The notes under the pieces were generated by a model. That model was not told the origin of the DNA, did no database searches, and was given only the letters and a program-made list of their open reading frames with translations. The translations under genes and the position numbers were made by a program. From NCBI GenBank assembly GCA_027382625.1, contig JAJKFJ010020972.1, positions 1 through 64,000 on the forward strand: 64,000 nt of DNA. Direction: 5' to 3'. Source of the stretch: Tetmemena sp. SeJ-2015 (taxonomy: Eukaryota; Ciliophora; Spirotrichea; Sporadotrichida; Oxytrichidae). Each line of letters starts with the position of its first letter. The first letter of the stretch is position 1. Shown here piece by piece: positions 9,390 through 63,637 of this stretch.

Positions 9390-10450
9390 TCACCACGATA
9401 GATTCTCCGTCGAGTAAATTAAAATTAAGACAATTTAATTTGGAAAAATACTTTATAAAATGTCCTTGCCTTGTAATCTGACGAAGTAGAGCACGATGAA
9501 AATAAGCATTATAAATACAACTACTCCAGCCATCGCCAGGAAAGCGATTCCCAGAAATTTATTGTTCCCTCCGAAGGCGTTTACCTCTGACAGGTAAATG
9601 TATTTCTTTCCATCGAAGCCCGACACATCGAACTAGTTAGTTATAGTAATTGTGTAGTTAGTGCCAAAAATGATTTCATTATGAATATAATTATGCCAGC
9701 TTTGATGGTTGTCCAGAGATGGCCCCATAGCTTAATGAAGTTGGGGAAGCTTTCCATTTGATACCAGACCATAACATGCTCATTTGTGATGTTAAGCCAC
9801 GCTATGCTATTACCGTTAGAAGGTAGCTTGAATTTATATTGCTTGTCGACTGAGTGAGCTATGTTGGTTTCATCTATCCCTATCATAGACTTATTCGTTG
9901 TGAATGCAAGTTAGTAAGTATCGTTAAAGAAGTATTTCCCAATCAGCCCACAGGGATAAGCAACGCTGTCACTTCTGAGAGTAGTACCATCGATGGCCTA
10001 TTTTGCTATATTGTCACCAAGATCGCTCATTTTTATGATTGGGTCGCACGTTGTTAAACTTCCACTAGAAAGCACATTGCCCCTCATTTGCTTGTAATTT
10101 CTGCTCTTCACGAAATTTCTATGGTTGGCGTAGAAATTTTCAAGCTGATAGTAGAATTTAGGATTCACCAAGTCGTGGTCAGTCACGAAAGTCAACTAAC
10201 AGGTGCTGACTCCGTTACAGACATCGTCATAGCGAATCGTGAAGTCTTTTATACTGCTGGCTTGCATGAAGCAAAGGATGCCGAAGCCTGCCAGGATAAT
10301 AGCAAAGACTAAATAGCAGAGCATGGCGCACTTGAAAGTGGGAGTAATCAGGATATGGGAGATCTATTAGTTTTAGATGCGGCCCCAGCATTTTAACTTG
10401 GAAACGTCTGTCTCTACTTCTTGTTTTCCTTTTTCTTCTTTCTTTGCCAT
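9390..10450 (-). CDS. CDC50/LEM3 family P4-ATPase flippase subunit
   Basis: CDC50 proteins are the beta subunits of P4-ATPase phospholipid flippases in the secretory pathway. Visible features are a first membrane helix at about residues 42-65, the family signature YYQLENFYANHRNFVKSR (near 10,120), and a Cys-containing luminal domain. A conserved KAG-TNYTITI segment leads into the second membrane helix (FLGIAFLAMAGVVVFIML). The frame is broken once, at 9,663-9,694, by a 32-bp insert flanked by GCCA. Removing it leaves exactly 1,029 nt (342 codons plus TGA). The family is about 330-400 residues long, so the length fits. No spliceosomal intron is needed. It is divergent from the kinase at 11.4 kb. 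Confidence 0.93.
9663..9694. other. IES, 32 bp, pointer GCCA (TGGC on coding strand)
   Basis: Direct repeats GCCA lie at 9,663-9,666 and 9,695-9,698. The insert is AT-rich and has no GT-AG ends in the coding sense. Excision with one repeat copy joins KAG to TNYTITI, the conserved CDC50 sequence before the last membrane helix. Confidence 0.92.
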
Positions 10451-11435
10451 TGAAATAAATTATTGAAATCTGTAAATATAATATCACTCTTTCTAATCCT
10501 AAATTAGCAAATGTAATGAAAGTTATATTGAAAAAAATTGCTGAAGAGACGCGATTTTTCGTAAATTATTTTAAGATTAAGCTAAAAATGATTTGTTGAT
10601 AAGTATATTATTTCTATAGTTCTTTATCGAATTTAATATGTTTTAAAATGGAAAATTATTATAAATTATTTATTTAACTAAATATATTTTCTTATAATAA
10701 AAATATTTAACCTAAAAAGAACTAATTGAAAATGTAAACAAAACAAGAAAATGATTCGGAATGAAATTCTTACATTAAAATCCTTGATGTGTATAATTAA
10801 CTATTTTTCACCCTTTATTTTTAAATTTATCCAAATAATATATGCTAAAATATTTTTTTAAATTTTTTTTTATATTCTTTAATCCGTTTGAAGATTATTA
10901 TCACTAATATACTTATACTTTCTCACAAGTGCTTCAAAATATTTCAAAAGCGAAGGAGCTAATAAATATGAATGAAAATAAACTCCCTTTTTTGCTTTGA
11001 TGAAATCACAGTTGGATTAGATTGAGAGACAATGAGTTAAAATACTGTTGCACATTTTATAGACCCTTTCAAGATTACGTTTATCATTTTGGGATTTATT
11101 TATACACCCTTCAGATTTAATTATTAATTTAAATAAGAAAAAACATAGTACCATTCTATTAAAATATAAACTGTAAATAACATAAATTCAAAAAAAAGAA
11201 TAAAATTAAATTATAACTAGTATATTGAATTAGTTAAAATATATTTTAAATCACTTCAGTAGAGTGATAATAATATTTATTGAAGTGGAATTGGAAATTT
11301 ATTAAATTCTTACATACTTATTCAAGCTCTTTTCTAATAAAGCTTAACTTTTATCAAAGACTGCACTGATTCTCATTAATCAATTAAGAACTGGAGATTA
11401 AAATAACTAAATTTTACGCAAATTAAAATACTCTC
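10451..11435. other. AT-rich intergenic region between divergent genes
   Basis: About 985 bp of very AT-rich sequence separates the starts of the CDC50 gene and the second kinase. I see no coding frame, RNA gene or long repeat. It should contain both promoters and, if the two genes become separate macronuclear chromosomes, the sites where telomeres are added. Confidence 0.6.
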
Positions 11436-14366
11436 ATGCAAACCAGGTCTCTCAAATAAGCCAACCTCCCTCTAATCTCCAACTCTCATACTCAACTTGA
11501 AGTCAATTCTTCTCTAGACTTGTAGAAGAGTGATGGATCTGTGTCGCTGATTAAAAGAAATACTCCTACTGCAAAGAAAACTCTCAAAAAAGAGCAAGTT
11601 ATTTCCTTATAACCGCATTATAAGAAGTTATTAAATATGCATTAAGTTATTTGTTGCATCTTTGCAACAAAGATGGAAGCGATCACAATACAACTTAAAA
11701 GCAAAATAAAGTGTAAAAATTCTAAGAAAAAAGTAGATTTCAAAGCTCAAAGCAACATACAAGTCAAAGAATCTCAATTAGCCTAAGAGGCCAGCAAATA
11801 GAAGAATCTAAGGTGAGCTCAAAACATCAGAAAGGCCTTTAATAGCGTGCACTTCATAATCTTTCAGCACCAAAGATGCTCCTGTAATTGCATAAGTGGA
11901 GATGAATCACTCGCAATATGAAAATTACTCCTTTTTCGAGGATCATATTCTTAAATCTCAGACCTCGCAAGAAAACTAAAGGGAACTGCCTAATAAGATT
12001 AGCTTGTAAAGCTTACCTGCTGGATATGTAATTGACAAGAGGTACTAGATATTGCAACCTCTCCTCAAAGGTTCTGGTGGCACTGTATACCTTGCTCTCG
12101 ATCAATATACCACTAACGCAATCTCCTCTCTCTCACTCGGATTCCAAATATTCTCAACCAAATCCAACTTTTGCGACCAATTCAGATCTCATATGCTTAA
12201 AATTAATCTTATCATTTCAAATTTATCTCAATACTGAAGCTAGATCCTATCAGCTCACTCTGAAAAGGATAATAGACTCTAGCTCTGAAAGTGGAAATAT
12301 TGCGGAAAAATTAAACTTGAACATGGGAGTTGAGTCGATATAATTTGAGTCAGTTAGAGTTGCGGACTCGAGTGAGACTGAATCAATTATCTGTTGTTCT
12401 ACCTCTAAAATGATAAGTAGACAATCATTTTTAGATACGAGTGAGAAATTGAGAGTGATTAAAATTTATTCAAGTGATAGTGAAATCGGATTATTTCAAA
12501 ATGAATTCACCGCACTCTCGCAAATAAGATAGGTCCAAGATTAGATAGCAGCTCTTTATTCAAAAGGCGTAGTTACAAGTCAACACTCGGAAGGTATAAT
12601 TTAGACGTATGGAACAAACCTGATAGTGCTATAAAAATAATGCTCAGTTCATTTTACAAACTTGAGTTATAATAAGTCTTTAATATAAACTCTTTTAATT
12701 ATTCACATTATGAATACAACAAAACTTGAATATTAGAGAAAGATTTGAAGATCAAAATGTGAAGCAAGAAAGCGACTATAGTAACAACAAATAAAGTGAA
12801 GAAGCTTCTAAGCAAAGTTAGCATGATTTAATAAACGAGCCAGCAATTTTGGGAGCTTATATTGCCTTTGAGTACTTTAAACCTCAATAAATTGTATGAT
12901 TGATCTTTTCGATTTTACTGCAAATATGGAGATCTGTTTTAGCTGGCATCTCAAAGTAAGACTCTCTTTAACTCCAAACTTTGCCACTCTCTCTTCTACC
13001 AAGTCATTAAGTGTGTCGAATTTTTGCACTCTTCTTGTAAAATGGCCCATAATGACATTAAACTAGAGAATTTTGTAGTTGACTCCCATTTCAGAGTCAA
13101 ACTCATTGACTTTGCGTTTTGCGAAAATATCCACAAAGTATTTCAAAAATACTTATTCGAAACTGAAAATTTGCTAATAAAGATTTTTAATAATTTTGTC
13201 TTATTTATTTATCATTAAAATATAAAGAATAAATCAACAAAAATTATTTTTAATGAATAAGATGCAGATATAATTCTGAGGATTATAAAAAAATGTCATT
13301 TACAAAAATTAAAATCCTGAAAGTGCAAATAATTGTGTCTATAATAAGTAGGCCTAGGGGAACGTTGCAGTATCTTGCCCCTGAGGCTCTTGAGACTTTA
13401 AACCCAGATAGAATGAACGTTTCTCAAGTTATGAACTTTAATGCGCAGCCACTTTAAGTTTTGACGTAGCTTAAACCTATTTAACCATAAAGCATGATAC
13501 ATATAATCCATTTTCGCTATTAGTTTAACTTATTTAATGATCAATGGCTACTCTGGAGAGAAAGCCGATGTGTTTGCTCTTGGTGTGTTACTCTTCTGCA
13601 CTTAAACTCACTCAACATTAATCAATTGCAACATCTTAACTTATTTGAATTTACTTCGGATTCGCTCCATTTGATGATTCATTAAATTCAGTGACAGACC
13701 CACTTTTCCAGCTGCTTTCATCTAGTGATAGCAACCAAGTGGAAGGTTACTTCTACCTCAAATTCAGAGAAAGAAATCTCCCATTCAATCTCCTAATGAG
13801 TGTCCCTCCCCAACTCAAGCGCCTTCTTGCTAAGTTATTAAGCAAAGATCTTGCAAGGAGACCCTCAGTGGAAGAAATTATCAAGAGTGATGAGTGGCTC
13901 AATGACTCTCGAAACGCTATGTCTCTATAGGATTATTAGTCCAATTAAATCTGCTTAACATATAGACTTAAGGATACTATTTGTATCCATGATGAAGGAT
14001 ATTTATAGAGATTTGGAGTCTGCGAGTTATCACGACTTTATAAGTGAGACTGAAAACATACAACACCCTCAAACTTAAAACCAGAGAACAAAAGTTGAGA
14101 CCAGCTAGTGTACTACATTTGGTACTATGAGATAATCAAATCAGCAAGAGTAGATAGGTAACGTGGAAAAAGGAATAAACGTTATCGCTGTTGAGCCCTT
14201 TGGGTTTCATATGCTTGGGAGTTAACGTACTCCATTTGTAATCCCTAAAATGTATTGCGGAATCGATGAGATTAGAACTGAAGATGAGTAGTCTGAAGCC
14301 TCTACCGCTCTTTGCCGTCAACTCTCAAAAGACTTCGAGAGATAGAATTTATTCAGCTCAACATGA
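11436..14366 (+). CDS. Ser/Thr protein kinase with at least four IESs
   Basis: This kinase has a ~200-residue polar N-terminal extension. Visible in order are a glycine loop KGSGGTVYLA (near 12,067), a long insert, the beta-3 motif VIKI (12,456), ILGAYIAFEYF (beta-4/5), a catalytic loop HNDIKLEN (near 13,051; HRD is HND) and DFA in place of DFG. Further on come a TLQYLAPEA segment, EKADVFALGVLLF, and a final RRPSVEEIIKSDEWL. IESs at 11,625, 12,184, 12,658 and 13,970 each restore frame exactly. Frame breaks near 12,900, 13,138-13,345, 13,440-13,545 and 13,600-13,660 are further IESs or introns I could not resolve. The C-terminal tail is polar and ends at TGA 14,364-14,366, though an alternative frame stays open beyond it. 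Confidence 0.85.
11625..11643. other. IES, 19 bp, pointer AAGTTATT
   Basis: Copies of AAGTTATT lie at 11,625-11,632 and 11,644-11,651. Removing 19 bp joins QPHYKKL to FVASLQQRWKR and brings the N-terminal frame into phase with the kinase domain. A third copy lies just upstream at 11,596-11,603. Confidence 0.85.
12184..12241. other. IES, 58 bp, pointer AGATC
   Basis: AGATC occurs at 12,184-12,188 and 12,242-12,246. Excision joins CDQFRS to YQLTLKRI and shifts from the glycine-loop frame to the frame that carries the beta-3 lysine. The insert contains a TGA that would otherwise end the protein. Confidence 0.85.
12658..12721. other. IES, 64 bp, pointer AAACTTGA
   Basis: The 8-bp repeat AAACTTGA lies at 12,658-12,665 and 12,722-12,729. 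Removing 64 bp joins SVHFTNL to NIRERFEDQN, continuing into the beta-4/5 region of the kinase. Confidence 0.88.
13970..13994. other. IES, 25 bp, pointer AAGGATA
   Basis: AAGGATA occurs at 13,970-13,976 and 13,995-14,001. Excision joins TYRLKD to IYRDLESASYHDF in the polar tail after the kinase domain. Confidence 0.82.
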
Positions 14367-15451
14367 AGATTACGAAATTGAACACGATCAAAATAAGGAG
14401 GGATAATAACTTCAAGATAATATGAAAATGTCAAGTGAAAGTCATAATATGCTTTTTATTAATTATGGTGTAATATTATAAGTAAAAGATAAGAAAATGC
14501 CGTCAGTTTATTCGGGATTAAAATCCCTCATAAACTTTAGTCATATATTCTTAAATTTTTATTTGATTTATAGACAACAGCAAATTCACTGTATTGCATT
14601 CCTTAGAAATTGGCTCATCTATTTCAATATGTCTAAGTTAAATTTCATTCTGTTTCTCTTAAAATGTAAAATTCTTAAAATGCGGGATAATATTTTAAGC
14701 TCTTAAAATTTTAGTCACTTTTTAATTGAAAAAGAATAGTTTAAGAATACTGAAGATGAATTTTTAATTAAATACTTTAAATACAAATTAGAGCTATATT
14801 AATTTTTGAAATTAAATATGATTTGAGTATTCTTTCATCTTTAAGGACCTCTATAAACTATAAACAAATCTGGCGCCTTAAATGAGCTAGTGGAAATCAT
14901 AACTTTAATCACAGCAAATCAATCTTCAATATTTTAGATTCGTCTTTTAAATAAAGAAGTAAAATTATAGGCTGCAAAATTTTAAATATGCTTATTTTCT
15001 TTTTAATTCTTTGAATCTCTGTTTAATTTCCAAAGTTTTTACACTAAAATATTTGCCACTAGTAAAACTTTAGTTTTTAATTCCATAAAAATCCCTTTCG
15101 AAATCACATTTGTATGTAAAATTGGCAATAAAGTATATTAGTAGATAAATATTTCACTTCCTATTATAATGAATAATCCAAAAAGGGTTTTACTTGGCTA
15201 AACTTGAGTAACTATAAGAAGTTTATATTTTGAGTGAATGTCTTATTTCGTAATAATTATTTTAAACTTTATTTTTTAGAAATTTATCTTATCCCGACCT
15301 CAAAATTATAAGTTCATCATTATCGATTTAGTTATGAAATAAACTTTTAGTTCAGCTCTTTCTGCCAAACCTAATTATTCTGCAGACACTTAAATTCTTG
15401 TGTCGCCTTTTATAGATTTTGAGTAATCTTTGCAGTCTATTTAAAATAGAT
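14367..15451. other. AT-rich intergenic region
   Basis: About 1.1 kb lies between the kinase tail and the convergent cyclic-nucleotide-binding gene. The first ~130 bp still read as polar protein in one frame (HEDYEIEHDQNKEG), so the kinase may extend to about 14,500. The rest shows no coding frame, repeat or RNA gene that I can support. Confidence 0.5.
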
Positions 15452-17555
15452 TCATTATAAATATAATAATCCAATTTATAATATGTATTCTTCTGTGATG
15501 GTACCAAGAGCCTGTTTTTTATTCCTCTTGGCTACATTTATCTTCTTTTGGTGAACTTCTTTTTCTTGCATGCTTCCTCCTTTGCTGATCTTTTCTAGCA
15601 AATCTTAAGACAGCAGGCTATTGAACCTCTATGGTTAACAATAAAGAATAAGTTGGTCTGGATTGATGAGTTCTTGCGTTGAGAAATCTAGATTGTCTTT
15701 GTCAGGACTGGCTTGAGAAAGTCAAGTAACCTTGAGAATCTGTCTCTGTGATTTAGGTGTGGTTTACTTTTTGATAAGTCTTGGAATTTTAATGATGCTA
15801 AGTGGCATCTATCCACCCATATTAAAATTACTAATATCTCTTCCTTGCTCCCTTACATCATGCTTTGCTTATAAGCCTCTATGACTATTTTGCTTTATAT
15901 TGATGTGTGGCTAAGATTTCGCTTATGCCAAAGACTTGACTTGTATTTATTCGTTTTAGTCCATTTGAAAGTCCCTAATTTAGTTTAGATTCTTTTTGGC
16001 TGAGCGCAGAACAGATGAGTGAAGCCTCTATGTTTTACCAGTTGAGTGAGGAGTTGCGGGTGAGTTAGAGTAAGTATCAGATACTTTGTACGAAGTAGGT
16101 GAGCGATGATTCTTCAGCTAATTAACAACTTCAATTTGATTGTAAGTGCTAGTGATCTACCCTTGAATGATATCTGCAAACTCCTGCTGAAAATTTAAAG
16201 TCAAAGAATAAATTTAAAGCAGAATTAAATTGGTGGAGATGGGTTTGTCCATTTTGACTAGGAAGTTGTGTATTATACCCTTATCTCGCTTTTTTGTCTA
16301 TTAAAACTTGCTTAAACTCCTTTAGTACTTCTGACTCCTCTGGGTAGGGTGGAGAGTACTCTTTCAAACGCTGCTGCACTCTTTTAGGCAGGCCCAATAT
16401 GTCATTCTCATTAATAGAAAGAAATATTTAATGCATGCAAGAGTCTTAAAAATTAATAACCAGGCACTCACTCGGAAGCATAGAGTAGACATAGACACCT
16501 TGGTTTGAAGGTGGGATCTCACTATCGTAGTTGAGGATATGTAGGTGACCAAAGTAGTCTCCTTACTCTAGACATCTATCTAGATGTATTGTCCGTTGCT
16601 CAATCTTTGGATCACTTAGAACCTTCCACTCAAAATGTAATAAGTTCAGAAGCATTTGAATAAATGAAGTAGATGTTCTTTGACTTCTTATCACCTGAAA
16701 CCACTACAGTCTTTGAGTGAAACTGCTGAGTGTGAGCTTTCATAGCTAAAATTATCACCTCATAAATGTCCATGTCTTCTCCGGCGAAGTAAGGCACGTT
16801 ATACAGAAACTCTATGCTCCTCTCGATGTCACTAAAACCCAGGCCTTGCATCTAATTCAAGTACACAGTCTTTGGAAAGCGGAGAATATTTTTTTTACAC
16901 GACATTATAAATATTTGACCAAGATTAAAATATGTGTCTTTGACTTTGCCATAACTGTTTGAATGCGAGGCATCTTGTAGATGAGTTCTATGTCACCGAA
17001 ATAGTCCAAGTTACTAAGGTCAGTAACAGCAAGCGGGTATTCCTCCTCAGTTAATTCGTTGTAGACAATTTGATAGATAGTCACTTGCCCCATCATCACC
17101 ATGTAGAAATAGTCAGCACTTTCGCCCTTCTAATAAATTGACTCTTTCTTAAAAATTAAAAGGCCAAACTATTAAACTATAGTTAAACCTATTTTCTCTG
17201 AATAGACCTAGAAGGAAGCTCTTCATAATAAAGATTATTATAAGTTAAAGTTTAGTTAAAAGTCTTCTCAGGATATTTGTTATTTGCTCTTGATTTGTTA
17301 TGCAGCTTTTGAATACCTTGCTCTCCTAAAAACTTGTTGTGAACACATTTAAGGTATTACAAGCAGATAAGAGACCAGTCTGGAATTCTCTGATTCGTTC
17401 CTCTATTCAGGGAGTTTGGTGAGTATGGCAATTAACTCTTTGTGGTACAACTCCATACCTCTCATCTCCGCTCTTAAGTTTCTTATCTTCATTTACTCCT
17501 TCTATTTTGAAGTCAGCTTGCTCTTGCTGCTATTTCGAGCTAGAGGAGATGTCAT
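15452..17555 (-). CDS. Cyclic-nucleotide-binding-domain protein
   Basis: The minus strand from the Met at 17,553-17,555 gives a charged N-terminus (KIRNLRAEMRGMELYHKEL). A cNMP-binding fold follows near 16,910-17,130: YFYMVMMGQVTIYQ, then FGDIELIYKMPRIQTVMA. The latter matches the phosphate-binding cassette pattern FGE(L)AL...PR..T, with Asp where Glu is usual. The C-terminal half is Gln/Ser-rich and ends TITEEYIL before the TGA at 15,452. The family includes PKA regulatory subunits and many ciliate cNMP sensors; no kinase or channel segment is visible here. At least four frame breaks (near 17,330, 16,900, 16,640 and 15,730) show that IESs or introns interrupt it. A TGA near 15,730 lies in frame between two coding stretches and is unexplained. 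Confidence 0.75.
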
Positions 17556-17792
17556 TTCTTAAACAGTAATTCTATTTCATTACAAATATTTCTCAAAATA
17601 GGGATCACGCTTCCCTATTTGTGTATCTAAAGGGGAAATGAAATAATTATTCTATTCGCTCTTTTGCCAGAGAGAATCATTCTATCAGATTTGAGCAGAC
17701 GCTATTAGAAAACTGTGATTTAAAGATATGTCCATTCTGTTTTGTTTTAATTCAATTTAAGTTGTTTACATTTCTTACTTATAATTTATAGC

Positions 17793-18115
17793 TCACAAAC
17801 TCTAATCAAGCTTTTCATTTATTTTAGAAGACAGGGCCTCAACCACCCTACATAAAGCAAAGCCCATGCGAGGTTTGCCTTAGATAGGGCTTGCCGGCAT
17901 CAGAACCCTGCCCCCGCTCCACTTGTCCACAAAAAGAGGGTCGATTGTAGTATAGATAATTGTCTTAATTTGAATAAGCAGTGTGACCTAGAGCTCTGCT
18001 CTCTTTTATGAAATACACCTGTGGTTTCGTGGACGCGTTTCAAAACTCTTGGTGAAGAGAGTAGCTAGTCTGAGATATTTAAACGCAGTTCTAATTAAAA
18101 GTTAATGGTTATTAT
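17793..18115 (-). CDS. Unknown small protein in a GC-richer patch
   Basis: An open minus-strand frame ends at TGA 17,793-17,795 and includes DPLFVDKWSGGRVLMPASP. The underlying DNA (17,840-17,940) is clearly richer in G and C than its surroundings, which favours a real coding exon. I do not recognise the family. The start was not determined, and the upstream part (about 18,050-18,115) may belong to another exon. The opposite strand is also open over part of it, so strand assignment is tentative. Confidence 0.4.
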
Positions 18116-18134
18116 AGTTGCAGTCAATAGTTGC

Positions 18135-18574
18135 TGCTATATTCATTTTTTTATTTAATCTGGAAGTTAAAAGTTTGCTCTCACTTAGAGATACCAGAGA
18201 CAATAAACGTTGAAATTCAAAGTTAAATTAGATTTCTTCTCAGAAGTAACTATTTAATTATAATTTTCAATTAAGACTTAGATTATTCACAAAAAATCAA
18301 TTCAAAATTATAATAAAAAAGTTGCACATAATTTCCTTTTTGCCTATTTTATATTTCATTCATTAAAAACACTTACTTCATTTTCTTCTTCTAAAAAAAA
18401 TGAAGGATACGCTTATTCATTATTAATTTGCTCAAAAATTCTCCAATATTTTAACTAAAGATAATCTCAGCATTAGATACATGTATTTATTATTTATTAT
18501 TTTATCATCTGAAATTAATGATGAGATTAAAATTGTTAATAATTTTTACTAATTCGTCAGAAGAAAACTTAATT
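18135..18574. other. AT-rich intergenic region
   Basis: About 440 bp of AT-rich DNA lies between the small unknown gene and the 3' end of the peptidyl-tRNA hydrolase gene. I see no coding or structural feature in it. Confidence 0.5.
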
Positions 18575-19230
18575 TCACTCAAGGATTTAAAATTTGTCTA
18601 ATATAGAGAGGGCTTCGATTGTCTCGCAAGGGCCTATTGAGCAGACAGTGCCAGAGTATCTCGCAATTTAAGTCCTACCAGCATCATAAACCACATAACT
18701 CTTGAGTCCTATGCTTTCAGCTTTCTCAGCTGCACCTTCTAAATCACTAAGACTGTGAGCTGCATAGGTCTGTTGCGCAAAGTCCACAGAGGACCATTAA
18801 GCGAAGAGCACTGGATCTTAATCGATCAAATCCTTGTACATTCCTAAAGACTGCATGCCCCGCCTAAGCACAAATCTTTCCTTTAGTCATCCCCAAATCA
18901 AGTCTAATTATTCTTAGTTTCATAAGATAATTAAAAGAATTTTAATTATCAATGCTATGTATATGACATGCAATTTGAATCCCTGATTCCAAGCCACACT
19001 CGGCACAAGAGCAGGATTTATTTTGGTAACATTCTGCTTCACTTATTAAACCTTTTCTTAGTCTTGATTATTTTTTATTTCTGAGAGTCTTCTAGCCTCC
19101 TCTTTTATTTTACTTCTGGTGGTTGGCTAGAAGTAATTTCTTGCGTTTATTGTTGAGTACTATTATTCTCTTGATTGAGTTGGGTTTATTCTAGAGCAGA
19201 TTAAGTCTGCTGCACAAGTTCTTCCTCCAT
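18575..19230 (-). CDS. PTH2: Peptidyl-tRNA hydrolase 2
   Basis: Pth2 cleaves peptidyl-tRNAs released from stalled ribosomes. The domain is clear: RLDLGMTKGKICAQAGHA (near 18,880), then MYKDLIDQDPVLFAQW, and finally YVVYDAGRTQIARYSG with SIGPCE. These are the family's Lys/Gln/His and DAGRTQ signatures. A Gln-rich leader of ~60 residues precedes it from the Met at 19,228-19,230. One surplus T in a TTT run at 18,845-18,847 breaks the frame inside the conserved GHAV-LGMYK segment, and I read this as a base error. A further frame change between the leader and the domain (about 18,900-19,040) is probably an IES or intron; the repeats there were ambiguous. Confidence 0.88.
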
Positions 19231-19367
19231 TATGTTTTTAGTCTTATATATTTTGTATTAAATTATTATAGAGCTGCCCTAATTTAATAATTGAGCCAAA
19301 TCGCAAAAGAGCTTTAATTAATTTATATTTTGGAAGCATCTAACTTAAATATATTATTGGAGAAAAA

Positions 19368-26681: not shown

Positions 26682-26882
26682 ATTTTAAACTTCTCTTTGT
26701 TTAGTTTCCCTAATTAAAGTTAAGACCGTTGTTTTATTTGCAATCTATGAATCATTTAAATTTGTAAGCCTACATAGGATAGTAATTTCGGTTTCTTATC
26801 AAATACTGTATAAGTGCTGAGTTTTGAAATTGATTATTATATTTATTCCTTAAATTTAACTTTACAAATTTTAAGATCAAAG

Positions 26883-45318: not shown

Positions 45319-45482
45319 TCTTAAGGGAAACTTATCTTATCTGCGTCTACTATGTTTTTATTTATGGATTGATTCCTTAATATATTTGCATAGCCTAATT
45401 TTTCTACATAATTTTTTTAATCAACATATTAAAATACTCTCTTTATATTGTACAAGATATTTAGTTATAATTATTTGAGAAA

Positions 45483-48768: not shown

Positions 48769-48930
48769 AGGTTGCGAAACTTAATGAACAAGTCAATAAC
48801 GAGATACATAAAAGTCTCAATTATAAAATATGAACTTAAGACTATCCAATTGCAAATACCTTACCGCAAATAGAATTATATAAAGATATAAGAGTAAGAT
48901 AAATAAATCTATAATTTTAGCTAAATCAAA

Positions 48931-49723: not shown

Positions 49724-50207
49724 AGAAGAAGTAGGGCAGTTTGGAAGAATATCAAAGCAGGCACTACTAGAATTTATTCCGACTGGCAATCAAATTTTAT
49801 CTATCATTACGATTATTCCATCGAATTAAACTTCAACTCCAAAAGCTGAAATTTACAAAAATCCCTAGATTCTCTTCGAATATATTAAAGTTGGTAGGAA
49901 ATTATAAGTTTAAGGGGGTCTTCTTGATTTATAATTAAAATACTACCGTTCTCTCGAATCAATCCCATCTACAACCATCCATCATTCCCTATTTTTAAGT
50001 AAATTACCTCATGATAACTTATTTGTTGCTTTAGATCGCTCTAAGATTTCTCTAAACCTAAATTTGAATAAACCCTTCTCAGAAGAAGACTAAATTGACT
50101 CACAGTCATTCCATTACTCATTCCACTATTTAAATACCTATAAACTATAATAATTGCCCAGGCAGCCATTCTCACCCACATTAATTAAAAAAGAATATAT
50201 CACACTA
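49724..50207. other. AT-rich intergenic region
   Basis: About 480 bp with no supported coding frame or repeat, between COMMD and the membrane-protein gene on the same strand. Confidence 0.5.
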
Positions 50208-51211: not shown

Positions 51212-51754
51212 GAGAGTATAACGATTATTCCTATAGTTTAATTCAAGCATCAGCAAAACTCACAAGATGGGAACTAATTGGGCAGCTTTAACAGCAAAGG
51301 AACAGCTCTACCTATGCATCCAGAGCCCATAAAGATTTGAGAGCCCAACAATTCCTCAAATTTAGCACTAATTATAGACATATAAAAGCATATGTAAGAC
51401 CAATTAATTAAATTTACCTGAGTCTCTCAATTATTTTATAGAAGCAAATAGAAATATAGCTATTCATCATCAAGTCTCAAGAAAATAATTTTCAACACAC
51501 AATAATTTCACTATGGATTCAACTAATTCTCAAAAAACATTATTCATTCTAAGGTTTCCTTGAGCTCACTTTTAGAGTTCAGAGCCTTCTAATTAACTTA
51601 TTCAAACCAACAACAACTGTATATCTATATTGAATTTTCTATTTTATAATATATTTTGATACTTTATATAAATGACTGGAAAGTTAAAAATGTGTTTTAA
51701 TTAAGTACTACTCCTTAAGGAATATCGATCGCCAATCCATATAGGTGACTAATT
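51212..51754. other. AT-rich intergenic region between convergent genes
   Basis: About 540 bp. The first ~150 bp are weakly open on the plus strand, but nothing is recognisable. Confidence 0.45.
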
Positions 51755-53465: not shown

Positions 53466-54173
53466 TAATTAAAATAAACATATAGTGTATGCCTAAGTAT
53501 ATAATAGTTTGCAGATTGCTTTCCCATTTAGTTTTACCTTTTCGCTAACATTACTTTTTATAAGCCCTATTGCAATTATAAAATAGTCCTCTTATTTATG
53601 CAAAAATAATATACTCTGCTATTTATTAGCACCCTCTCTCCTATGATTATTAGAGAATGAATTAGGTGAGAATTAGAAAGAGAAAAGTTAAATAAATATA
53701 GACGAGCTGATTGTTTGATAGTAAGTAGATCAGAGCTTGTTTTAACTTTTATTGCAAACTCAAACTCAAAATAAAAGTCTGAATTTACTTACCCACTTTT
53801 TATATGTTCGACTGGCAATATATTATTTTATTTCATTCGTAGATTTATTCTTTGATCTTAATGGCTTTAATCTCATACATACAAATACAACCACTTCTAA
53901 TACTACTATATAAACAGCTCTAACTGTCCAATCACCCTCATCCTCTCATCTGCCCGAGAGATTAAAAGAGGGGATTGAAACTCTCTGCTTACTACTTATA
54001 TTAGGGTCAACACTCAGTCTTCACCCAAGTCTGTGCCTTCCATTCAGTCAGTCCATCAGGCTTATTTAAAGTAAAGAAATGCAAAAATGCGAATGGATTT
54101 ATTGTTGTGAGTTAGATAATTATCAGAATTAAGGTCGCGTTCTTTATAAGAACGGGGTTCACCTCAGGCGAGC
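53466..54173. other. AT-rich intergenic region
   Basis: About 700 bp between two minus-strand genes. No coding frame or recognisable element. Confidence 0.5.
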
Positions 54174-56710
54174 CACTCGTCCCTCAGAGCCTCAAATGAT
54201 GATATACGAAGTCTTGGATCCACCTCCAAGAATTTACTTTCACCTTAATATAGAAAGACTAAGATTTCGATATCTTGAATTTCCTGAGTAGGGTTTTCAT
54301 TTAAGGCGTCCAGGAGCCAAACTTATCTACTTTCTTGAGTCTCTTTTCCACACACTCCTGAATCTCCTCAGGGTCATCATAGCAAACTCAATTTAGCAAT
54401 AGATATATATCATAAGGGAAGAACTTAATCTTCTTTTGGCCTCTGGTCATGAGTAGGTACATGAGATACCTACACTCCAGCAGTCCACGTTTTCACCATA
54501 GTTTTGAGAGGATGAAAGCTCAGGATGCCGAGAATTGTTCTTCGCCAGTCTTGCCAAACATAGTTGGTTAATAAACCAGTAAAATAAGGAAATTCTTTCA
54601 GCTTATCAAATATTGAGTTTACTTTTCCGAGGCTTCGTGTTTGAACTCTAAGGCAGCGTTAAAATCAATGATTTTGAGAGTTTTAAGATCCTCCGTGACA
54701 TAAACATTGCCTGGCTTTATGTCTCTGTGGCAAATTTAGTGTCTATGAATATAGTTAATGCCCTCTAGCAACTGCCTCATTAGCCCTTTGATGGTTTCTT
54801 CAGAGTTATAGTGAATGATTTGTTGTGAATCTGCTTTTGAGAGTTCGGCTTCTTCCTCGTCGTCTGGAAGGGTGGACTTGAGTTATTTTATGAAGGATGC
54901 GAGGTTATAGCCCTTGCCTGCATATTCCATCACAATGAACATATTTTCTCGAGCCACGTTATAGAAGATGTCATACACCTTCATAATGTTTACATGCCCT
55001 TCCCCGAGGCCATCTGAGAGAAATATATTACAGTTTATGATTAATCTAGCATGTGAAATTCCTTGAGGGCAATGTTATAGAGCTCCTAATCTGGCACTTT
55101 CATGATCTTAACTGCGTATTCGGTTTAAACTGCTCCCAGAGATTTGCATATCTTCACATAAGAAGAGCAACCCTAAATAAAAATTAATCATTCACTCCTT
55201 ATCTAAAGCCATTTTGGCTTCTTCAGACGGCATTTATTTTCTTAATTATATTGAGAAAATTATCGAAAGCCTTTAATTCTTATAATAGCGATTATTTAGC
55301 CTCTGGTGGTTTATTTCAGAGTTTATAAAAACTGTGCTTTTTTAAAGATATCGAAAATGTTCGACAACACTTAAGTATTTCTTCCTATAAAGATGGTGTT
55401 AACTTACCTCGCCTAGGAACATGTCATCTTAGATCTCAAATTAATCCTCGAAAGCAAGTGCCTCTGGCAAGTTATTCAGTGGTTCCGAGCTTTTCTCAAA
55501 TTGTACAAGTTAATTCTTTGAGTCGGTGGAGACTTCGCTGTCGCTCTTGGGCAGTTAGGGAGTTAGCACGGCCACAGGAACTCTTTAGGAACTCCTCCTG
55601 CGGATTGCAGTCACATCATCCATCAACTTTATTTGCAAATCAAAGCTCAAAAATATAATGAGCTATTATTTCAAAGTCCTATTTGAGGAGCTGAACCTCA
55701 TCCTCGCATTCAAAATCCACTTCTTCCTCATTCTTAGTGGATTTAGCGATGTTTTGATTGATTGGCTGCTTCACTACGATTTATGGGGGCACTTGGGGTT
55801 TCGCGAGTTCCTCAATTTAAATGGAGATTCGATGTTTTTTGCCAGTTCGCACTTCGGTCTTCATCTTCTTCATGGGCCCACCCACATTTATCTCTGCATC
55901 CTCACTTATATCAAACCCTAACCTCTAAATAAGTGGTGGGCAAGAATAATTTGTAAAAGTCTCTGCTATGATGGCACATCAAATTGTGTCTATTGATGCT
56001 ACAGGAAGGGTAGTATGTTGCTTCGACCTTGAAGATTTTTTGAACACCTCACAGGTGTTCCGTTCCCAGATTTTTTTAATTTAAATGCGTCATAAATATT
56101 CTTAGATTGAGGGCCTTCAACTTCTGACGGATCTTACACATTGAAATTCTAACTATGTATTTAAAAGTTGATCTCTTCGGTGTTTTAAGTAGTCAGTTGC
56201 ATTATGATCTCTTTTGCCCCACAAGTCATTATAGTTATTAAAATGAATGTAAATCTAATTCAAGAATGATTATCGCTTATATTAAGGGGGAGGATGAGCG
56301 GAATCGCTGAGCTGAATTCCATCTCTAGATCTCTTTAATTCTATAAATCGTCTTCATCCTAATCAAATTGATATATAATATTGGTATACAGATCTTCATC
56401 CATTCCTGCAGATGAGGAATGACCATCAGCTTTGTGTGAGATCTGGCCAGTGGCTCCATTTACTCCCCTTTGTTTTCTTATATCTGAGTTTGGTGAGATC
56501 TGACTATTTCTCTGAGAGTGGAACAAATAAAAATCATCTATAATTAACGAGTGATGTGACATATTGCTGCTCTTGACGCTAAAAGACTTTTCACTTAGAA
56601 CTGACTGAGGTCCATTCCCCCACTGCGTGAGTCTGGTCTGCCCGCCATCAGTGGTTGCGCTTTGGAGTTACTAAACCTGCCCTGAGAAGCGAGGCCTTTG
56701 GATAACCAAT
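54174..56710 (-). CDS. Ser/Thr protein kinase with DFN in place of DFG
   Basis: The kinase domain has LGE-GCSSYVKICKSLG as glycine loop (split by a 235-bp GT-AG intron, 55,173-55,407). The lysine motif AVKIMKV, the hinge MFIVMEYAGKGYN, the catalytic loop CHRDIKPGN and IIDFNAALEFK (DFN) follow. Next come ENVDCWSVG and a final FLEVDPRLRISSFEALRDEW before TGA 54,174-54,176. HRD, Lys and Asp are kept, so it is probably active. An IES at 55,012 lies in the alphaC-beta4 region. The polar N-terminus includes SDSEVSTDSKNQLVQ and DEDLYTNIIYQFDQDEDD. Frame breaks near 54,250, 54,380 (an unexplained in-frame TGA), 54,480, 54,600, 55,650 and 55,930-56,320 remain. The start was not determined. Confidence 0.82.
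55012..55043. other. IES, 32 bp, pointer ATCT (AGAT on coding strand)
   Basis: ATCT lies at 55,012-55,015 and 55,044-55,047. Excision joins ALKEFHMLD to GLGEGHVNIMKVYDI, restoring the kinase helix C to beta-4 linkage. Confidence 0.9.
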
Positions 56711-57567
56711 GAGTCTAAACGTCAATGTTTGATTAAAATGTTTCCTTTATTCGGATAAATTATATAATTAAAGCTCCCAAAATACTACTCCTCTCCCTCT
56801 TCCTAAAGTGTTCTATAACATAGAAACTTATAGTAAAACCAATGCCTATCCTGAGCTAAACTTAGGAATGCAAGAAGGTAATTTTACAAAAGAAGCTAGA
56901 GAATATATTTGAAATTATGGGTGAAGTATTTCCTAAGAATGATAAGTCTCTAATATATTAGGGTAAGTCCATGCGATATTTACTGTAGCAGAATGAGATC
57001 TATTTTTAAAATTGCTCCGATATATGAAGTGATCATCTTCATAACTCACTTCAAAACCAGGAATTTAAGTAAATTTAGCTTATACACGTTCACCAAGCGA
57101 TCCCTTAATATAAACAAATGTTTTGAATAATGCAATTTTTAATATAGGGTTATTGCCTTAAATTAGGAAATCCCTTGATTTTTTTAAGGAAAGCTTGACA
57201 AATTATATTGAGCTTATAATTTTACCTGCAATTATACCTCTCAGCATCCACAAGAGATGCGTTTTTCAATATCGCTTTATCTTCGAAGCCACTCTAATCT
57301 AATTTTAATAAAAGTTCAATTAAAAATTTAATCGTAAGGGCGTAACTGAGTCAAGTTAAAAATGAGAAGACCCATGAGTTAAGAAAAAATGAATGAGAGA
57401 AATGAAATAGAGTTTGGTGATCTGGAGGGCATAGAGAGGGAGATTTTTATTATAGGTAGCTGTGCATCAACTACTTACCTTTGCATCTGTTCTGGAGAGT
57501 CAGTCTATTTTAAGACGAGGTTAGCTTTCTCCCGATCGTAGGGACGTCAAACGATGATGGTAATCAA
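56711..57567. other. Mostly non-coding; possible short plus-strand coding fragment
   Basis: On the plus strand at about 56,830-56,920 a frame reads YSKTNAYPELNLGMQEG, ending at a TGA, opposite in strand to the flanking genes. It could be a stray coding segment or chance. The rest is AT-rich with no feature. Confidence 0.3.
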
Positions 57568-58046
57568 TACAAATCTTTACTAAGGATGAATTAATAATGC
57601 ATTGCTTTAAATATTGATTGGTTAGTGGACTTCTTCTTCTGGTTGCAGCTTCCGCCAATCGAGAGGAGACTTCTGCGCTGAAGTAGCTTGAGCTAATACC
57701 CGAATGCAGCCTGCCCCGATTCGCCTCCTTCTGCATTTTTAGACTTTAAAAAGATTTATGCAATATTTATTATTTGAGACGAATCGATATCGTCTGGGCT
57801 CGCATTGATATCAGCATTAAAGTGCTTGATGGTCTCCTCGTCGCCTCGCTTTGGCGAGCCCTGTCCTGAGTCTGTCTCTTGCACGCTAGTCAGAGCTGTT
57901 GCGCTCATTCGCAATGTAGGAGTTAGATGTTCTCGTGGCCTCGAGAGGCAGTTAAAGTTTTCGACGCTGAGCAGAAAGCTATTCCTTTCCGGTTCTCTCG
58001 CTTCTAATCCTTGATTTACATTCGTATCACTTCTATTGCTTTCCAT
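57568..58046 (-). CDS. Ser/Asn-rich N-terminal segment, perhaps of the downstream kinase
   Basis: An open frame from the Met at 58,044-58,046 gives a polar protein (SLLSVENFNCLSRPREH-like, then TDSGQGSPKRGDEETIK). It stays open to a TGA at about 57,568; another frame (MQKEANRGRLHSGISSS) is also open in its second half. The base composition is richer in G and C than the flanks, suggesting real coding sequence. No domain is recognised. As the next coding on the same strand is the kinase N-terminus at 56.7 kb, it may be its first exon/MDS. Confidence 0.45.
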
Positions 58047-59149
58047 GTTATTAACTAATCACAAATATTCCAACAATAAGAGGAAATTAAGCTCAGTCTA
58101 TTTTTATAAAACTCTTCAATGAATGAATTTATCCCTTTTCTTATTTGTTATGGCAATAATAGTTATATTATCGTGGTCGGTAAGGAATTATAAGTATAAA
58201 TCACAGATCAAAGGCAGTGAGATAGCCTGGTTAAAATCCAAAATAATGAAGGGTTTTCACTCCGAGACTTACTCTTAATGCTCTCTGACAGCTTTTCCAC
58301 AAAGACAAGCCACTACAAAACAAATAAAAATCTAATTAAACTTCATTTTTCTCCTTCTCACTTTGTTTTCAAATCATAACCATAAAAGTAAAAAATTATA
58401 TATTTAGACTTCGAATAAAGGTAAGTTTGATTTATATTCTTTTTAAAATATTACATAGACAGTAATTGGTTTCTTAAATCAGTACACTAAGTGCTGGTTT
58501 TTGAAATTGATAATTAATTTTACATTCCTAATATTACTTTACTTTTTAAAATAAGCCAAGGCATCGAGTGCTTATTGACAATTCTATCTCTCTAAAAAGC
58601 AATTAAGATTATTGATAGAATTTTACTAGAGATCTTCTTGATGGGAATGCTTTTTGAGAATCCTACTGAATTTAAATGGAGACATAACTATAGTTTGCGA
58701 TGATGAGTACTAAATTAAGATTTTGGGATAATTATAATTAATAAAATCAGCGTAGTTTCCTAAATGAATAGAGAGGACTTAGAAATCATACAAGCTTAAT
58801 TTTATAATAAAGTTTTAAATATATTAAAAAAGATTATTCAATAATTTAAAGTAATTTTTAAATAAATTTGTCACAAATTCTCCTATTTAATTTATGAATT
58901 AAATGCATCAAGTTGAAAATACAAAAGAAATAAGAATTTTTTATGGTAATCCTTAATTTATTAATTTAAACAAAGCTTACCTTACAAAAAAGTACGCTAA
59001 AACTTTAAAATGTCATTTATAGTATATTTCTAAGGTGACTCCTTTAAAATTCTTGCTTATTTTCATTTTCCAACTCTCACTATACCACACTGCAACTTTT
59101 CATTTAAATTTGCAACCATATCTGATCTTGATTATTTAGAGGTCGAAAG
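58047..59149. other. AT-rich intergenic region
   Basis: About 1.1 kb of AT-rich DNA between divergent genes, with nothing supportable in it. Confidence 0.5.
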
Positions 59150-60531
59150 ATGGCTAAAATAATACTAAAAGGCCTATTACTGTCTCTAATCGTGCTGCTT
59201 GAGATCTTCCTCCAAAGCAGTATGCTATTTACACTAGTAGGACTCTGCTTCTGGGTACTGATGCTCATAGTTTTCACTAGCCCTCTATGGATTCCTCTAG
59301 CAATACTCTGGTGTCCTGCAGGCCTCCTAATCTTCCTGATCTTCAAATATACTCACGTAAGTTCCCTCCTCCAAACACGAAAACATTTTCATGAATAATC
59401 ACCTTGTACAAATATTGATTTCGTATTTAGGCAGGCGAAAAGGTGTACGATTTGAGTGAGAGGATTTTCTACTATATGACTTACAATGTGACCTGGTGTA
59501 GGAAACTAGTGTGGCAATCTGTCTACAATCTATTCTCCTGGTAAGAATAGCACAGAAGTTATTCATCATTTCAGGTACATGAGAAATGACACAAAGTTGA
59601 CAAGTTTTAACTGTGGCTATGCTATCTTAACTCAAACTGGAGAGACTATCAAGTTAACAGCAAAGCAAGACAGAAGAAACTAGTTCCAGTTTTAACTTTA
59701 CCACTACGCTGCACTTAGTAAGAGAAACTTAAAAATCTAACATTCTAACCAGGTGTGAGAAATCAAGAGAAACTGAATGACCTCAGAATTTATAGTAATT
59801 ACTTTTCCATTTTAAATCTTGGATGTTGGGTGTGGAAGAGGTGGCGGACTTGCCTTTCTGTCAAGATATTACGATCCAAGTGAGGCTGTTGGTTTGGACT
59901 TCAGTCACTAAAGCATTAAATTCTGTAATGAAAGATTCTAAGAAGAAGAGAATCTCACTTTCACAAGGGTAATAACTAATTTATAAGAGATTAACCTTAA
60001 CTCAATCCATTATAGGGAGATGTAGAGAAAATCCATAAAATAAAGAGCTTGAAGGAAAGCAGCTTTGATCTAGCACTTTGCATTGAGACATTCCACTGCC
60101 TTTCTAACCCGTAAAAGGCTCTTAAGAACTTAAAAAAGAATATCGAATAGCATAGTGGGTAGATTGTCATTGTTGATATCTCACAATTAGTTTGAATGCT
60201 TAAGCAATTTCATTTAATCTTTGAGAAGAAAGACTCTGAAAAGACAGAGTAATTGTTCTCAGATGCTGGATACAAGATTGTAAAGAGAGAACTACTGACT
60301 TTCAATATCAAGCATGCCATGAACTTGGACAAGCCAAGATTAGAGAGACTGATTTAATCCATTTCGGAGAATTAATACGTAGTTAGAATCCTTAGAAACT
60401 TCTTGGCTTCAGCTGAGGACTCAAAGACTTTCAGAGAACTTGGAAAAACGAAGGACTATATCTAAATCTTCATTATGTTGTAGCAATATTAAAATTTACT
60501 ATATCTGTTACGTTCTTCGTCCAATAATTGA
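59150..60531 (+). CDS. Membrane-anchored SAM-dependent methyltransferase
   Basis: Two hydrophobic segments at residues ~5-55 precede a class I methyltransferase domain. Motif I is ILDVGCGRGGGLAFLSRYY, motif II ends in EAVGLDFS, and the later strands are SFDLALCIETFHCL and GQIVIVDIS. The substrate is unknown; membrane anchoring suggests a lipid or quinone-like acceptor. GT-AG introns lie at 59,357-59,430, 59,541-59,574, 59,718-59,752 and 59,969-60,015. IESs lie at 59,787 and 60,184. Subtracting all six leaves 1,143 nt, 380 residues plus TGA, so the model is arithmetically exact. The second IES carries an in-frame TGA and would look like a premature stop. Confidence 0.93.
59787..59814. other. 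IES, 28 bp, pointer AAT
   Basis: AAT lies at 59,787-59,789 and 59,815-59,817. Removal joins NDLR to ILDVGCGRGG, placing motif I of the methyltransferase in frame. Confidence 0.92.
60184..60204. other. IES, 21 bp, pointer CAATT
   Basis: CAATT lies at 60,184-60,188 and 60,205-60,209. The 21-bp insert keeps phase but contains a TGA. Excision joins IVIVDISQ to FHLIFEKKDSEK. Confidence 0.9.
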
Positions 60532-60879
60532 ATAAGACTAATAGGAAAAGAGTAGCGGAAGAGGGGCAGGAATTAAACTTAAAGCGAGGACTCCTGGATG
60601 CACAGCTGATGTGCAAGGCTCCGCAAGTCACTAACACGCGCAGAGCAGTGGAAATTTAAATACAAAGTGAGATTGAAAATCGTAAATGGAATACAATAGT
60701 GTTTATTGAAACCTCGATGAATAATGAGGACGTAAGCATTATCCTCAGTTAAGGTCATAGCCTATTTTTCTTAACTAATGACGGCAGCAAAATTATTTAT
60801 GCATCACTCACTTCAAATATCATCTTAGAGTATTCTTAGAAATAATAGGTGATTCAGAATTTTTCGAAATGAAAATTAC
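60532..60879. other. Intergenic region between convergent genes
   Basis: About 350 bp between the methyltransferase and the S9 peptidase stop codons. Partly open but not recognisable. Confidence 0.5.
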
Positions 60880-63637
60880 TCAATTTTGGATTTGAGATGA
60901 GAAGTGTTCTTCAAACCATAAGCTGAGATTTATATAGTGGTCAACTCCAGATTCGATGCCTGTAATATTATGGCCATCATTTGGATAAGTATTCATTTTA
61001 GTCTTGACTCCATTGGCTTTAAGGATATTGAAGTAGTGATAGCTTTGCGGAGGAGGTACTCTCTTGTCCAATTGCCCTATGATGAATAGACAAGGAACTC
61101 TGACGTTTTGGACTGCCGATATCGGAGAGTTCTTAAAGAATACCCTGTTATCCTCTTCAGTTAGAGAGTACCTCAGGTCTTCATTTAGGTTATTAGAATA
61201 GATCCAATCAGTAAAGTCAGCTGCTGACACCATAAATGACATGTTTATTACTGGATTCAAAAGCACAGCTGCAGAATACAGATCTTTGAAAGAGGGATGA
61301 CTTATTTGCCAAGCTGAAGAAAAGCCACCATGAGACCAGCCAAATACCCCCACTCGAAGAGGGTCTATCTTATCTGAGAATTTTTCTAGAGCTAGCTTAA
61401 CTAGGTTTCCTTCGTCTTCAACTTCTACAGTGCCAACTTTACCCAAGAGACTATTCATAAATCTTCCCCATAGCCCTTAGAGCCGCGGTAGTTTACTATC
61501 AAAAGCTGATACCCTTGAAGCAAGAGAAAGATCCTATTGCTAATGAAATGATCTTAGGCTGAAGAATTAATTGGCCCTCCATGGAAAATCACAATCATTG
61601 GGTGCTTCTAGTTCGGATCCAGTTGAGATGATCTTAGAAAATAGCCTTCAGCCCCATTTTCAAGAGCTATAGTTTCTCTAGTTATACTTTAAGTGAGTTG
61701 TGCGACCAAGTCATCTAAGTTGTTAAAATTTGATTTATTGAATCCTGTTTTGTCAACTAATCTCACATGCAAATTTTATCGAATACAAAAAAGGAATAGT
61801 TTGATTTTACTCGTGAGTCAACTCTTCAATAGATAGTTTGTCTAAGGATTTGAAATTGACTAGATATATCATTGGTGGAATGCTGCTCGTGCTATATTTA
61901 ATTATGAGATACTCATCGAAAGCATTTATAAGTTCGTATTCCCCATCCATGTGTGCTACCTTTTCTTTATTTAAAAAGTTTAGCCACTTTACTTTGCTCT
62001 TTTCTATGTCAGATATGAGTTTTTTAAAAATAATTTAATCTAAAGATATGTAAATCTCTCCTGTCCTTTGAAAGAGGTTTGGAAGTAGGTGTATCTATTT
62101 GAATTTCCAATAAAGCCATGGCAGAAGAGAGATTAGTTATAGCCAAATATTCCACAAAATTCTTCATCTTCCTTTGGATACTCTTTATGTCTGCCAATCA
62201 CTAGATTAGAGGAATCTTCTTGTCCTGAAATGGGCCAGTTTAAATATCTCTGTTCATAATTTCCAGCATGAAAAATTTAAATGAGTTTCAATTGTAGCAT
62301 AAAATTTGTTTCATGAGATATAAACTTTTCTCTTGAGCCAAAGTACAAGATCTTTGAGAAGTCACTAGAAAACTTTGGAAGGAAAGATGTGTGCTCGAAT
62401 GGGTTCACGCATTTTATATAGTCATTCTTCTCTTGTTAGGTAAGTGCTTTATAAATCTTCTTATCACTGACTGGATTTTGAATGTAGTAAATCTTTGAAT
62501 CTTTGTTCAGGCAAAAATTTAATCCCAGTCTCTGAATGGGCAAATTATATCCTAGGAAAACTATTCCCTGACTCTTTTCATCAAACATGGGAGTAGCTGG
62601 ATAAAGAGTCTCCTCCAGGCCTTAAACTTCTTCAAAAGAATTATCCTCGAGGTTGTAAATGAATATTGTTTTATCAATAAAGAATACCATAATTCTATTT
62701 TCAATTGCTGGTCTTCTCTTTCCACTAAGATTTTCGCCAAAGTCATCAGCATAGAGGTATTTTTCATCCTGAAAATTTCAATATCATATAAATGAAAATG
62801 CGTTTCTTCCTCTTCTTCTTAATTTTTCTTTTCATCTTCTTCTTTCAAGGGATCCAACTTTTCTAATTTTCTCATCAACTGTGTCGTTGTGCTCCCAGTA
62901 GTTTTTATAGGAGGAGGGACCAGACTTCTCTCCAATGAAAACAACTTTGGTAGAGTCTCTAGACCAAGTAACCCCTCCAAAGATAGTGTTGTTATAAACT
63001 TTAGAATTATTATATGAAATTAAAAATCAATTATACACTTGAGAACACTTGTCATGTATCTTTTAACTGGCCACAAACGCAGCAACCTAATCACTCTCAG
63101 ATGAAGCATCTCCTTCTGATCTCCAGTGCTCAATAAAAATCTCTTTATCTGTTGTTCCTTTTCTAAATCTGACTGACACATTTGAATTATAGGGAGAAGT
63201 TGAGCTGAGGATTATTTAGTTGGGGCTGGAATCAGTAGGGACTGAGGTCAACTTAATTATTGAAAGCGAGCTCTCTCCATCATTTTGCACTCTCCTCTCT
63301 ACCAAGTAAGTGTTCGTGTAAAAATTTAATTTATATCTTAATAAGTATGGCAGCTTGGCCATTCTTCTCAAATCTAAGGCTCAATAAATAAAGATGAAAA
63401 ATATAATGTTAAATTTGAAGGCTTCCTTTCTTATGTTTAAGAGGTATCGATTTATACCTTTCTAGGAATCCTTATAAAGTTAAATAAAACTAATATGATA
63501 GAAATACAATCATTATCTACAGGCACACTTTGAGCACTTGCAGATACGTATGTAGGAATATTCTTGTTTATTGAGTCGTAGAGTCTAGTTAAAAGCTCTC
63601 TCTTGCTTGAGTACAATTGATTTAGCTAAGATATCAT
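60880..63637 (-). CDS. Acylaminoacyl-peptidase-like S9 serine peptidase
   Basis: Prolyl-oligopeptidase family (S9C type): a beta-propeller gates an alpha/beta-hydrolase that removes N-acylated residues from peptides. The catalytic domain shows HPMIVIFHGGPINSS, NYRGSKGYGED, the nucleophile motif FGWSHGGF (GxSxG), the acid GQLDKRVPPPQS and the His in NDGHNITG. The propeller part includes GVTWSRDSTKVVFIGE, YLYADDFGEN and FGSREKF. The start is the Met at 63,635-63,637; the stop is TGA 60,880-60,882. An IES at 62,992 is resolved. Three single-base frameshifts (near 61,460, 62,775 and 62,870) lie at or near homopolymer runs. Other breaks near 61,720-61,800, 62,070-62,280 and 63,340-63,500 are introns or IESs not placed. 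Confidence 0.88.
62992..63030. other. IES, 39 bp, pointer TTATA (TATAA on coding strand)
   Basis: TTATA lies at 62,992-62,996 and 63,031-63,035. Excision joins KIHDKCSQVYN to NTIFGGVTWSRDS, keeping phase and removing a TGA. Confidence 0.88.

Follow-up and report, generated by a model that had tools for sequence, protein, structure and literature searches.

The first 64,000 nucleotides of contig JAJKFJ010020972.1 of Tetmemena sp. SeJ-2015 (the window, that is bases 1-64000 of the 115,973-bp contig C2051 in a 146-Mb assembly) most probably represent micronuclear DNA of a spirotrich, most likely a hypotrich, in which UAR codes for glutamine and genes are split by short, AT-rich, non-scrambled internal eliminated sequences (IESs) that are flanked by direct repeats, or pointers, and are cut out in the new macronucleus. 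We put the probability of this reading at roughly 94%. According to it the genes would be divided by the IESs into macronuclear-destined segments, and during development of the new macronucleus each IES would be removed together with one pointer copy, so that one copy stays in the somatic gene; ordinary GT-AG introns would sit in the same genes, and tiny indels in the assembly would imitate further interruptions. From the repeat-bounded ends, the missing GT-AG and the presence or absence of inserts among paralogs we infer that removal takes place at the DNA level in the developing macronucleus.

A self-trained six-frame coding model shows genes changing frame again and again on one strand, and in single-frame Pfam scans the CDC50, PTH2, SET, ARF, ADK and methyltransferase domains are split over frames, with partial domains also found for kinases, cNMP-binding, COMM, Sas10, APEH_N/Peptidase_S9, WD40 and NUDIX. 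In order to be counted an insert had to have its ends fixed by homology, with a direct repeat required during resolution, and anchoring was limited to conserved domains. Sixteen inserts in seven conserved genes, lying between positions 9416 and 63035, were resolved in this way:

9416 to 9461, minus strand: IES in the CDC50 gene, pointer ATTT, 42 bp excised (GKD/IYSTENLSW-stop)
9662 to 9698, minus strand: IES in the CDC50 gene, pointer TGGCA, 32 bp excised (IKAG/TNYTIT), body without GT
24613 to 24661, plus strand: IES in the AWS domain, pointer ATGC, 45 bp excised
24825 to 24872, plus strand: IES in the SET domain, pointer AATAC, 43 bp excised, MQYVGEV restored
25067 to 25111, plus strand: IES in the SET domain, pointer TGAG, 41 bp excised (NVLGE/VCVGIF)
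40619 to 40669, plus strand: IES in the ARF P-loop (GLDN/AGKT), pointer AAT, 48 bp excised, body without GT
40867 to 40920, plus strand: IES in the ARF gene, pointer AGAT, 50 bp excised (VIDSTD/EEKLLFA)
42298 to 42350, minus strand: IES in the UMP-CMP/adenylate kinase gene, pointer ATT, 50 bp excised
54562 to 54619, minus strand: IES in the protein kinase gene, pointer AACT, 54 bp excised
55012 to 55047, minus strand: IES in the protein kinase gene, pointer AGAT, 32 bp excised
59733 to 59819, plus strand: IES before methyltransferase motif I (LK/ILDVGCGRGG), pointer AAATCT, 81 bp excised
62011 to 62050, minus strand: IES in acylaminoacyl peptidase gene A, pointer CATATCT, 33 bp excised
62267 to 62316, minus strand: IES in peptidase gene A, pointer TCATG, 45 bp excised
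62665 to 62707, minus strand: IES in peptidase gene A, pointer CAAT, 39 bp excised
62767 to 62811, minus strand: IES in peptidase gene A, pointer AGGA, 41 bp excised
62992 to 63035, minus strand: IES in peptidase gene A, pointer TATAA, 39 bp excised

As only conserved domains were anchored, the true IES total is probably higher than 16; the original figure of about 25 came with no list of sites. Genes at 25.2-31.9, 33.0-38.4 and 45.6-48.7 kb had no Pfam match above the cut-off and went uncounted. Several candidates were left out because their ends could not be fixed, namely a kinase insert of about 200 bp near 13.13-13.36 kb, a peptidase junction near 61.76 kb and three inserts of the second peptidase paralog introduced below (B), two at the sites of the TATAA and AGGA IESs of gene A and one of about 330 bp; an in-frame TGA in the methyltransferase gene near 60.19 kb was likewise not counted.

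All 16 inserts carry a direct repeat at both ends, of 3 bp in two cases, 4 bp in eight, 5 bp in four and 6 and 7 bp in one each, and none of the 16 pointers is TA, which bears out the original prediction of short non-TA direct repeats. The excised length ranges from 32 to 81 bp with a median of 42.5 (n=16), and the inserts have a GC content of 20.0% (645 nt) against 40.4% in their 60-nt flanks (1920 nt). For a null expectation each insert was shuffled 3000 times with its dinucleotides kept and the pooled repeat length was scored. With fixed lengths the pooled length was 70 as chosen (71 at best) compared with 31.7 ± 3.7 in the shuffles, and with a freedom of ±2 residues and ±6 nt it was 70 as chosen (73 at best) compared with 50.6 ± 3.9, the latter being the fairer test because the junctions had been resolved partly by looking for repeats. 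None of the 3000 shuffles reached 70 in either test.

Cutting out an insert with one repeat copy restores the protein in all 16 cases, including the ARF P-loop, AWS, SET, methyltransferase motif I and CDC50 sequences that had been predicted to be split. Separate partial Pfam matches are fused by excision, with scores rising from 101 and 58 to 171 bits for CDC50, from 87 and 36 to 158 for Arf and from 34 and 17 to 93.9 for SET; with one intron removed as well, ADK goes from 50.5 and 51.5 to 135.6 and Methyltransf_31 from 24 and 24 to 67.2. Gains were also seen for Pkinase (64.7 to 115.8, one base also being altered) and APEH_N (35.3 to 66.5, again with one-base changes). The corrected CDC50 gene is a complete ATG to TGA frame of 328 amino acids, and a metagenomic relative (P0007, 83% identical over the aligned part) reads KAGTNYTITIS and GKDLYSTENL across both restored junctions. 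Alignments to SETD2, ARF1 and UMP-CMP kinase cross the junctions, and the small gaps that they contain lie close to some junctions without falling on them. That of ARF to ARF1 is gapless at both junctions, and the corrected ARF gene is a complete ATG to TGA frame of 209 amino acids. An earlier choice of TTTA as the pointer of the second ARF insert was dropped in favour of AGAT because it left six surplus residues relative to ARF1; the AGAT version aligns without a gap and scores 158 bits against Arf, compared with 149 for the TTTA version.

The genetic code and the repeats at the ends of other contigs are also ciliate-like. TAA and TAG occur in frame seven times in CDC50, three times in ARF and four times in the UMP-CMP kinase gene, all three frames end at TGA, and a TAG stands at the glutamine of PRNQDN, a motif common to UMP-CMP kinase. 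TAA and TAG thus encode glutamine, as had been proposed, and TGA is the stop. The sequence CCCCAAAACCCCAAAACCCC (C4A4C4A4C4) stands at base 1 of nine other contigs of the assembly; a reversed-pattern control is uninformative here, since the pattern is its own reverse. C4A4C4A4C4 at a contig start is the form of the 20-nt hypotrich telomere. Taken with the 16 anchored inserts and the sites that are empty in paralogs, these features leave the prediction of ciliate germline DNA with non-TA pointers and TAR as glutamine well supported, and hypotrich-like. A 20-nt C4A4 repeat was also seen at C298:1-20 (L071), where a match to C1815 begins inside that contig, and the match indicates in C1815 a 6.5-kb insert (C1815:29965-36471) that starts only a few bases from C4A4 repeats and shows a 3-bp overlap, which we take to resemble a telomere-bearing element.

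Haplotype contigs are available for parts of the window, C1339 for 13029-24055 (95-96% identity) and both C3833 (98%) and C4449 (94%) for 57954-64000 and beyond. Six IESs are covered by C3833 and C4449 and all six are present in both, with pointers unchanged at both ends in 6/6 cases for C3833 and 3/6 for C4449. Among the matches scored for window positions 1-40000 and 44001-64000 no insert-free copy of an anchored gene was found.

It could be argued that the 16 inserts are unusual spliceosomal introns, removed from the RNA. Real introns do occur in the same genes, and three were resolved:

42659 to 42800, minus strand: spliceosomal intron in the UMP-CMP/adenylate kinase gene, GTAAGC..ATATTAG, 142 nt
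49299 to 49384, plus strand: spliceosomal intron in the COMM-domain gene, GTAAGC..TAATAG, 86 nt
59969 to 60015, plus strand: spliceosomal intron in the methyltransferase gene, GTAATA..TATAG, 47 nt

The first ADK insert, the COMM insert and the second methyltransferase insert had been considered as IESs and were ruled out on these grounds. All three have GT..AG exactly at the homology junction and a flanking repeat of only 1-2 bp, compared with 3-7 bp at all 16 inserts; the consensus for spirotrich introns, as given in a section of PMC1805493, is GTAAG..TAG. For the 16 inserts no GT..AG alternative was found within ±2 residues and ±9 nt of the homology junction, and six of the 16 bodies hold no GT at all. 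The expectation that the interruptions lack GT-AG ends stands for the 16 anchored inserts and fails for the three introns.

A number of points weigh against the IES reading. Taken one at a time, repeats of 3-4 bp carry little weight (p reaching 0.28 for a single event) and strength comes only from the pool, while the junctions were picked partly by a search for repeats, the choice for the second ARF insert having moved from TTTA to AGAT after alignment. The insert SET-1 has a GT..AG alternative of 31 nt, read by eye, if four extra residues are allowed, and direct repeats flank some spirotrich introns (in the relevant part of PMC1805493). In C4449 a pointer copy is changed at one end of the methyltransferase IES and of the peptidase IES at 62.0 kb, and a 6-base deletion has taken away one of the two AGGA copies at the fourth peptidase IES. 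With the repeats and the missing GT..AG on the other side, we regard intron splicing as a very improbable account of the 16 inserts.

A second alternative would put the interruptions down to indels from assembly or sequencing, or else to the genes being pseudogenes. Such indels are real, in that tiny ones account for at least nine frame changes. A second haplotype contig lacks seven of the nine (18846, three at 20.9-23.3 kb, 62867, 62055 and 61460), and the other two, one at about 45068 in the WD40/THOC3 gene and one at 54525, were identified only from homology. An example is the following:

18840 to 18850, minus strand: one-base indel in the PTH2 gene, base 18846 absent from haplotype C1339

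The PTH2 break was accordingly rejected as an IES. The breaks in the gene at 19815-23347 were also rejected as IESs; its three frame changes vanish in C1339, where 20924-23347 is one frame, and at 20.9-23.3 kb C1339 differs from the window by indels of 1-4 bases. The stretch 20229-20923 reads in another frame in C1339 and is open in the window. The break in the WD40 gene, which had been predicted to have its blades split by an IES, is instead repaired by one base in an A6 run (about 45068), and no IES was seen in the part of that gene that was read. At some points it is a haplotype whose frame is changed by an indel and the window that stays open (C3833 at 62305 and 61783, C4449 at 62021), and C1339 differs from the window by 35 one-base indels over 10,938 aligned bases, so that a frame break alone is poor evidence here. 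Indels cannot, however, yield AT-rich inserts of 32-81 bp with bounding repeats, all six covered IESs are present in both haplotypes, and we give this explanation a still smaller chance. With introns and tiny indels mixed in, the original prediction that interruptions in general are IESs was too broad: it holds for the 16 inserts and not for the three introns and at least nine tiny indels. A split ubiquitin gene, also predicted, was not found by loose motif or Pfam scans of part of the strands and regions.

Tandem paralogs of the peptidase gene supply empty sites for three IESs. At least three acylaminoacyl peptidase genes (A, B and C) lie in tandem at C2051:60883-69250, gene A at 60.9-63.4 kb being followed by B and C, which are about 62% identical to A in the catalytic domain. 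The site of the TCATG IES of A is empty in B and C. At the position of the CAAT IES neither holds an insert: C continues without a break, and in B a one-base frame change immediately precedes that position. At the AGGA site B and C are interrupted too, and at the TATAA site B is. One site has an IES in all three genes, with pointers CATATCT, TTC and GTTTT and lengths of 33, 45 and 36 in A, B and C; in Oxytricha and Tetmemena pointer sequences mostly differ at conserved positions, according to a portion of PMC9797194. A private 24-bp insert with a TATCC repeat, an IES of its own, was read from the sequence of C and is absent in A and B. Paralog B has an insert of about 330 bp that is absent from A and C.

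A mobile repeat is also present in the same region:

58439 to 58553, plus strand: SINE-like (short interspersed nuclear element) hairpin repeat at 58451-58541 with 12-bp direct repeats, absent from haplotype C4449
Copies of the hairpin repeat: window 58451-58541, window 26776-26865, C3833:6751-6853, L040 and L042-L050

The repeat at 58451-58541 (about 100 bp) is found in the window and in C3833, not in C4449, with the 12-bp duplication on its flanks. RNA folding of nine copies gave -12.6 to -25.9 kcal/mol for one strand and -2.7 to -9.3 kcal/mol for the other, using G-U pairs, although the 26.8-kb copy and L047 folded little better than shuffled letters. The alignment of copies has a (TTTAC)n tail. 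Flanking words of 8-14 bp were found in five of nine distinct insertions, two of them possibly lengthened by tail bases, and of 0-6 bp in the other four, counts that come without a null. The hairpin on the RNA strand, the (TTTAC)n tail and target duplications of up to 14 bp suggest a SINE-like retroposon rather than a miniature inverted-repeat transposable element (MITE). Rfam gave no matches, either in the window or in six loci.

In C3833 the coding sequence of paralog B holds one copy, flanked by a 14-bp target duplication without any mismatch. At this site C2051 has a single 14-mer and no insert, and C4449 has an empty site with one base different; the 14-bp duplication is thus set against an empty allele, and the 12-bp one was recognised because C2051 and C3833 have the repeat and C4449 lacks it. 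The 103-bp insert and one 14-bp repeat together make 117 bp, a multiple of three that reads through without a stop (39 codons). The insertion is therefore IES-shaped yet reads through in frame, and could be either excised or retained as 39 codons. It is conceivable, though we consider it unlikely, that a hairpin retroposon of about 100 bp still moves in the germline and makes new IESs, its target duplication doubling as a long pointer so that a coding insertion would be born excisable, and that the C3833 insertion in paralog B is such an IES segregating. Our literature searches turned up nothing on hypotrich SINEs or SINE-born IESs.

The same repeat lends some plausibility to the idea that the 16 inserts are small mobile elements that duplicated their targets on entering an ordinary nuclear genome and left the genes broken. 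The repeats of the 16 are however short and variable, conserved genes hold several inserts each, and the code and telomere repeats are ciliate-like, so that we allow this idea next to no chance and retain the reading of IESs in germline DNA.

Other features of the window were seen in passing. Positions 1-1197 and 1200-8000 are repeated in many contigs, 1-1197 also in inverted form, and the segment 7056-7924, which includes a kinase domain, shares 85-86% identity with C2580 and C1946. Between coding segments, 37877-38490 belongs to a repeat family of about 615 bp (39 of 1326 candidates scored). Small AT-rich presence/absence differences between haplotypes occur at 58822-58855, 58937-58961 and 19630-19682, and C1339 carries 27 bp extra at position 14469; some of these stretches have direct repeats of about 9 bp, and they are either IES-like or due to repeat slippage.

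In raw ciliate germline sequence many conserved genes look broken unless IESs are removed, but where introns and tiny indels occur it is a mistake, too, to ascribe each break in frame to an IES. The tandem peptidase genes, with their shared, private and pointer-changed IESs, and the segregating retroposon offer material on the origin of IESs and the drift of their ends.

Germline genes with IESs are a kind of system that is already well known. Euplotes and Paramecium likewise have short AT-rich IESs in coding sequence. In Euplotes TGA encodes cysteine, whereas here it is a stop. Pointers in E. vannus are, as in Paramecium, mostly TA (in part of PMC10901763), in contrast to 0/16 here. The hairpin repeat resembles, as short non-autonomous mobile repeats of the germline, the MITIES of Blepharisma, which are MITE-derived IESs (as described in a portion of PMC9942856), and the putative SINEs of Paramecium (a passage of PMC5405496), and differs from MITIES in its RNA-strand hairpin, its (TTTAC)n tail and its target duplications of up to 14 bp. 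Halteria and Strombidium share diverse AT-rich pointers, mostly below 10 bp, and have median IES lengths of 104 and 180 bp, compared with 73 bp in Oxytricha (all from sections of PMC10901763) and 42.5 bp here, a value that includes only inserts resolved inside conserved domains. No scrambled gene of the kind known from Oxytricha and Tetmemena was recognised in the window, where no systematic search for one was made. The non-scrambled IESs of Oxytricha trifallax and Tetmemena are alike in being repeat-bounded coding inserts whose positions are often kept while their pointers differ, in coexisting with introns and in sharing a germline with telomere-bearing elements (as set out in part of PMC9797194).

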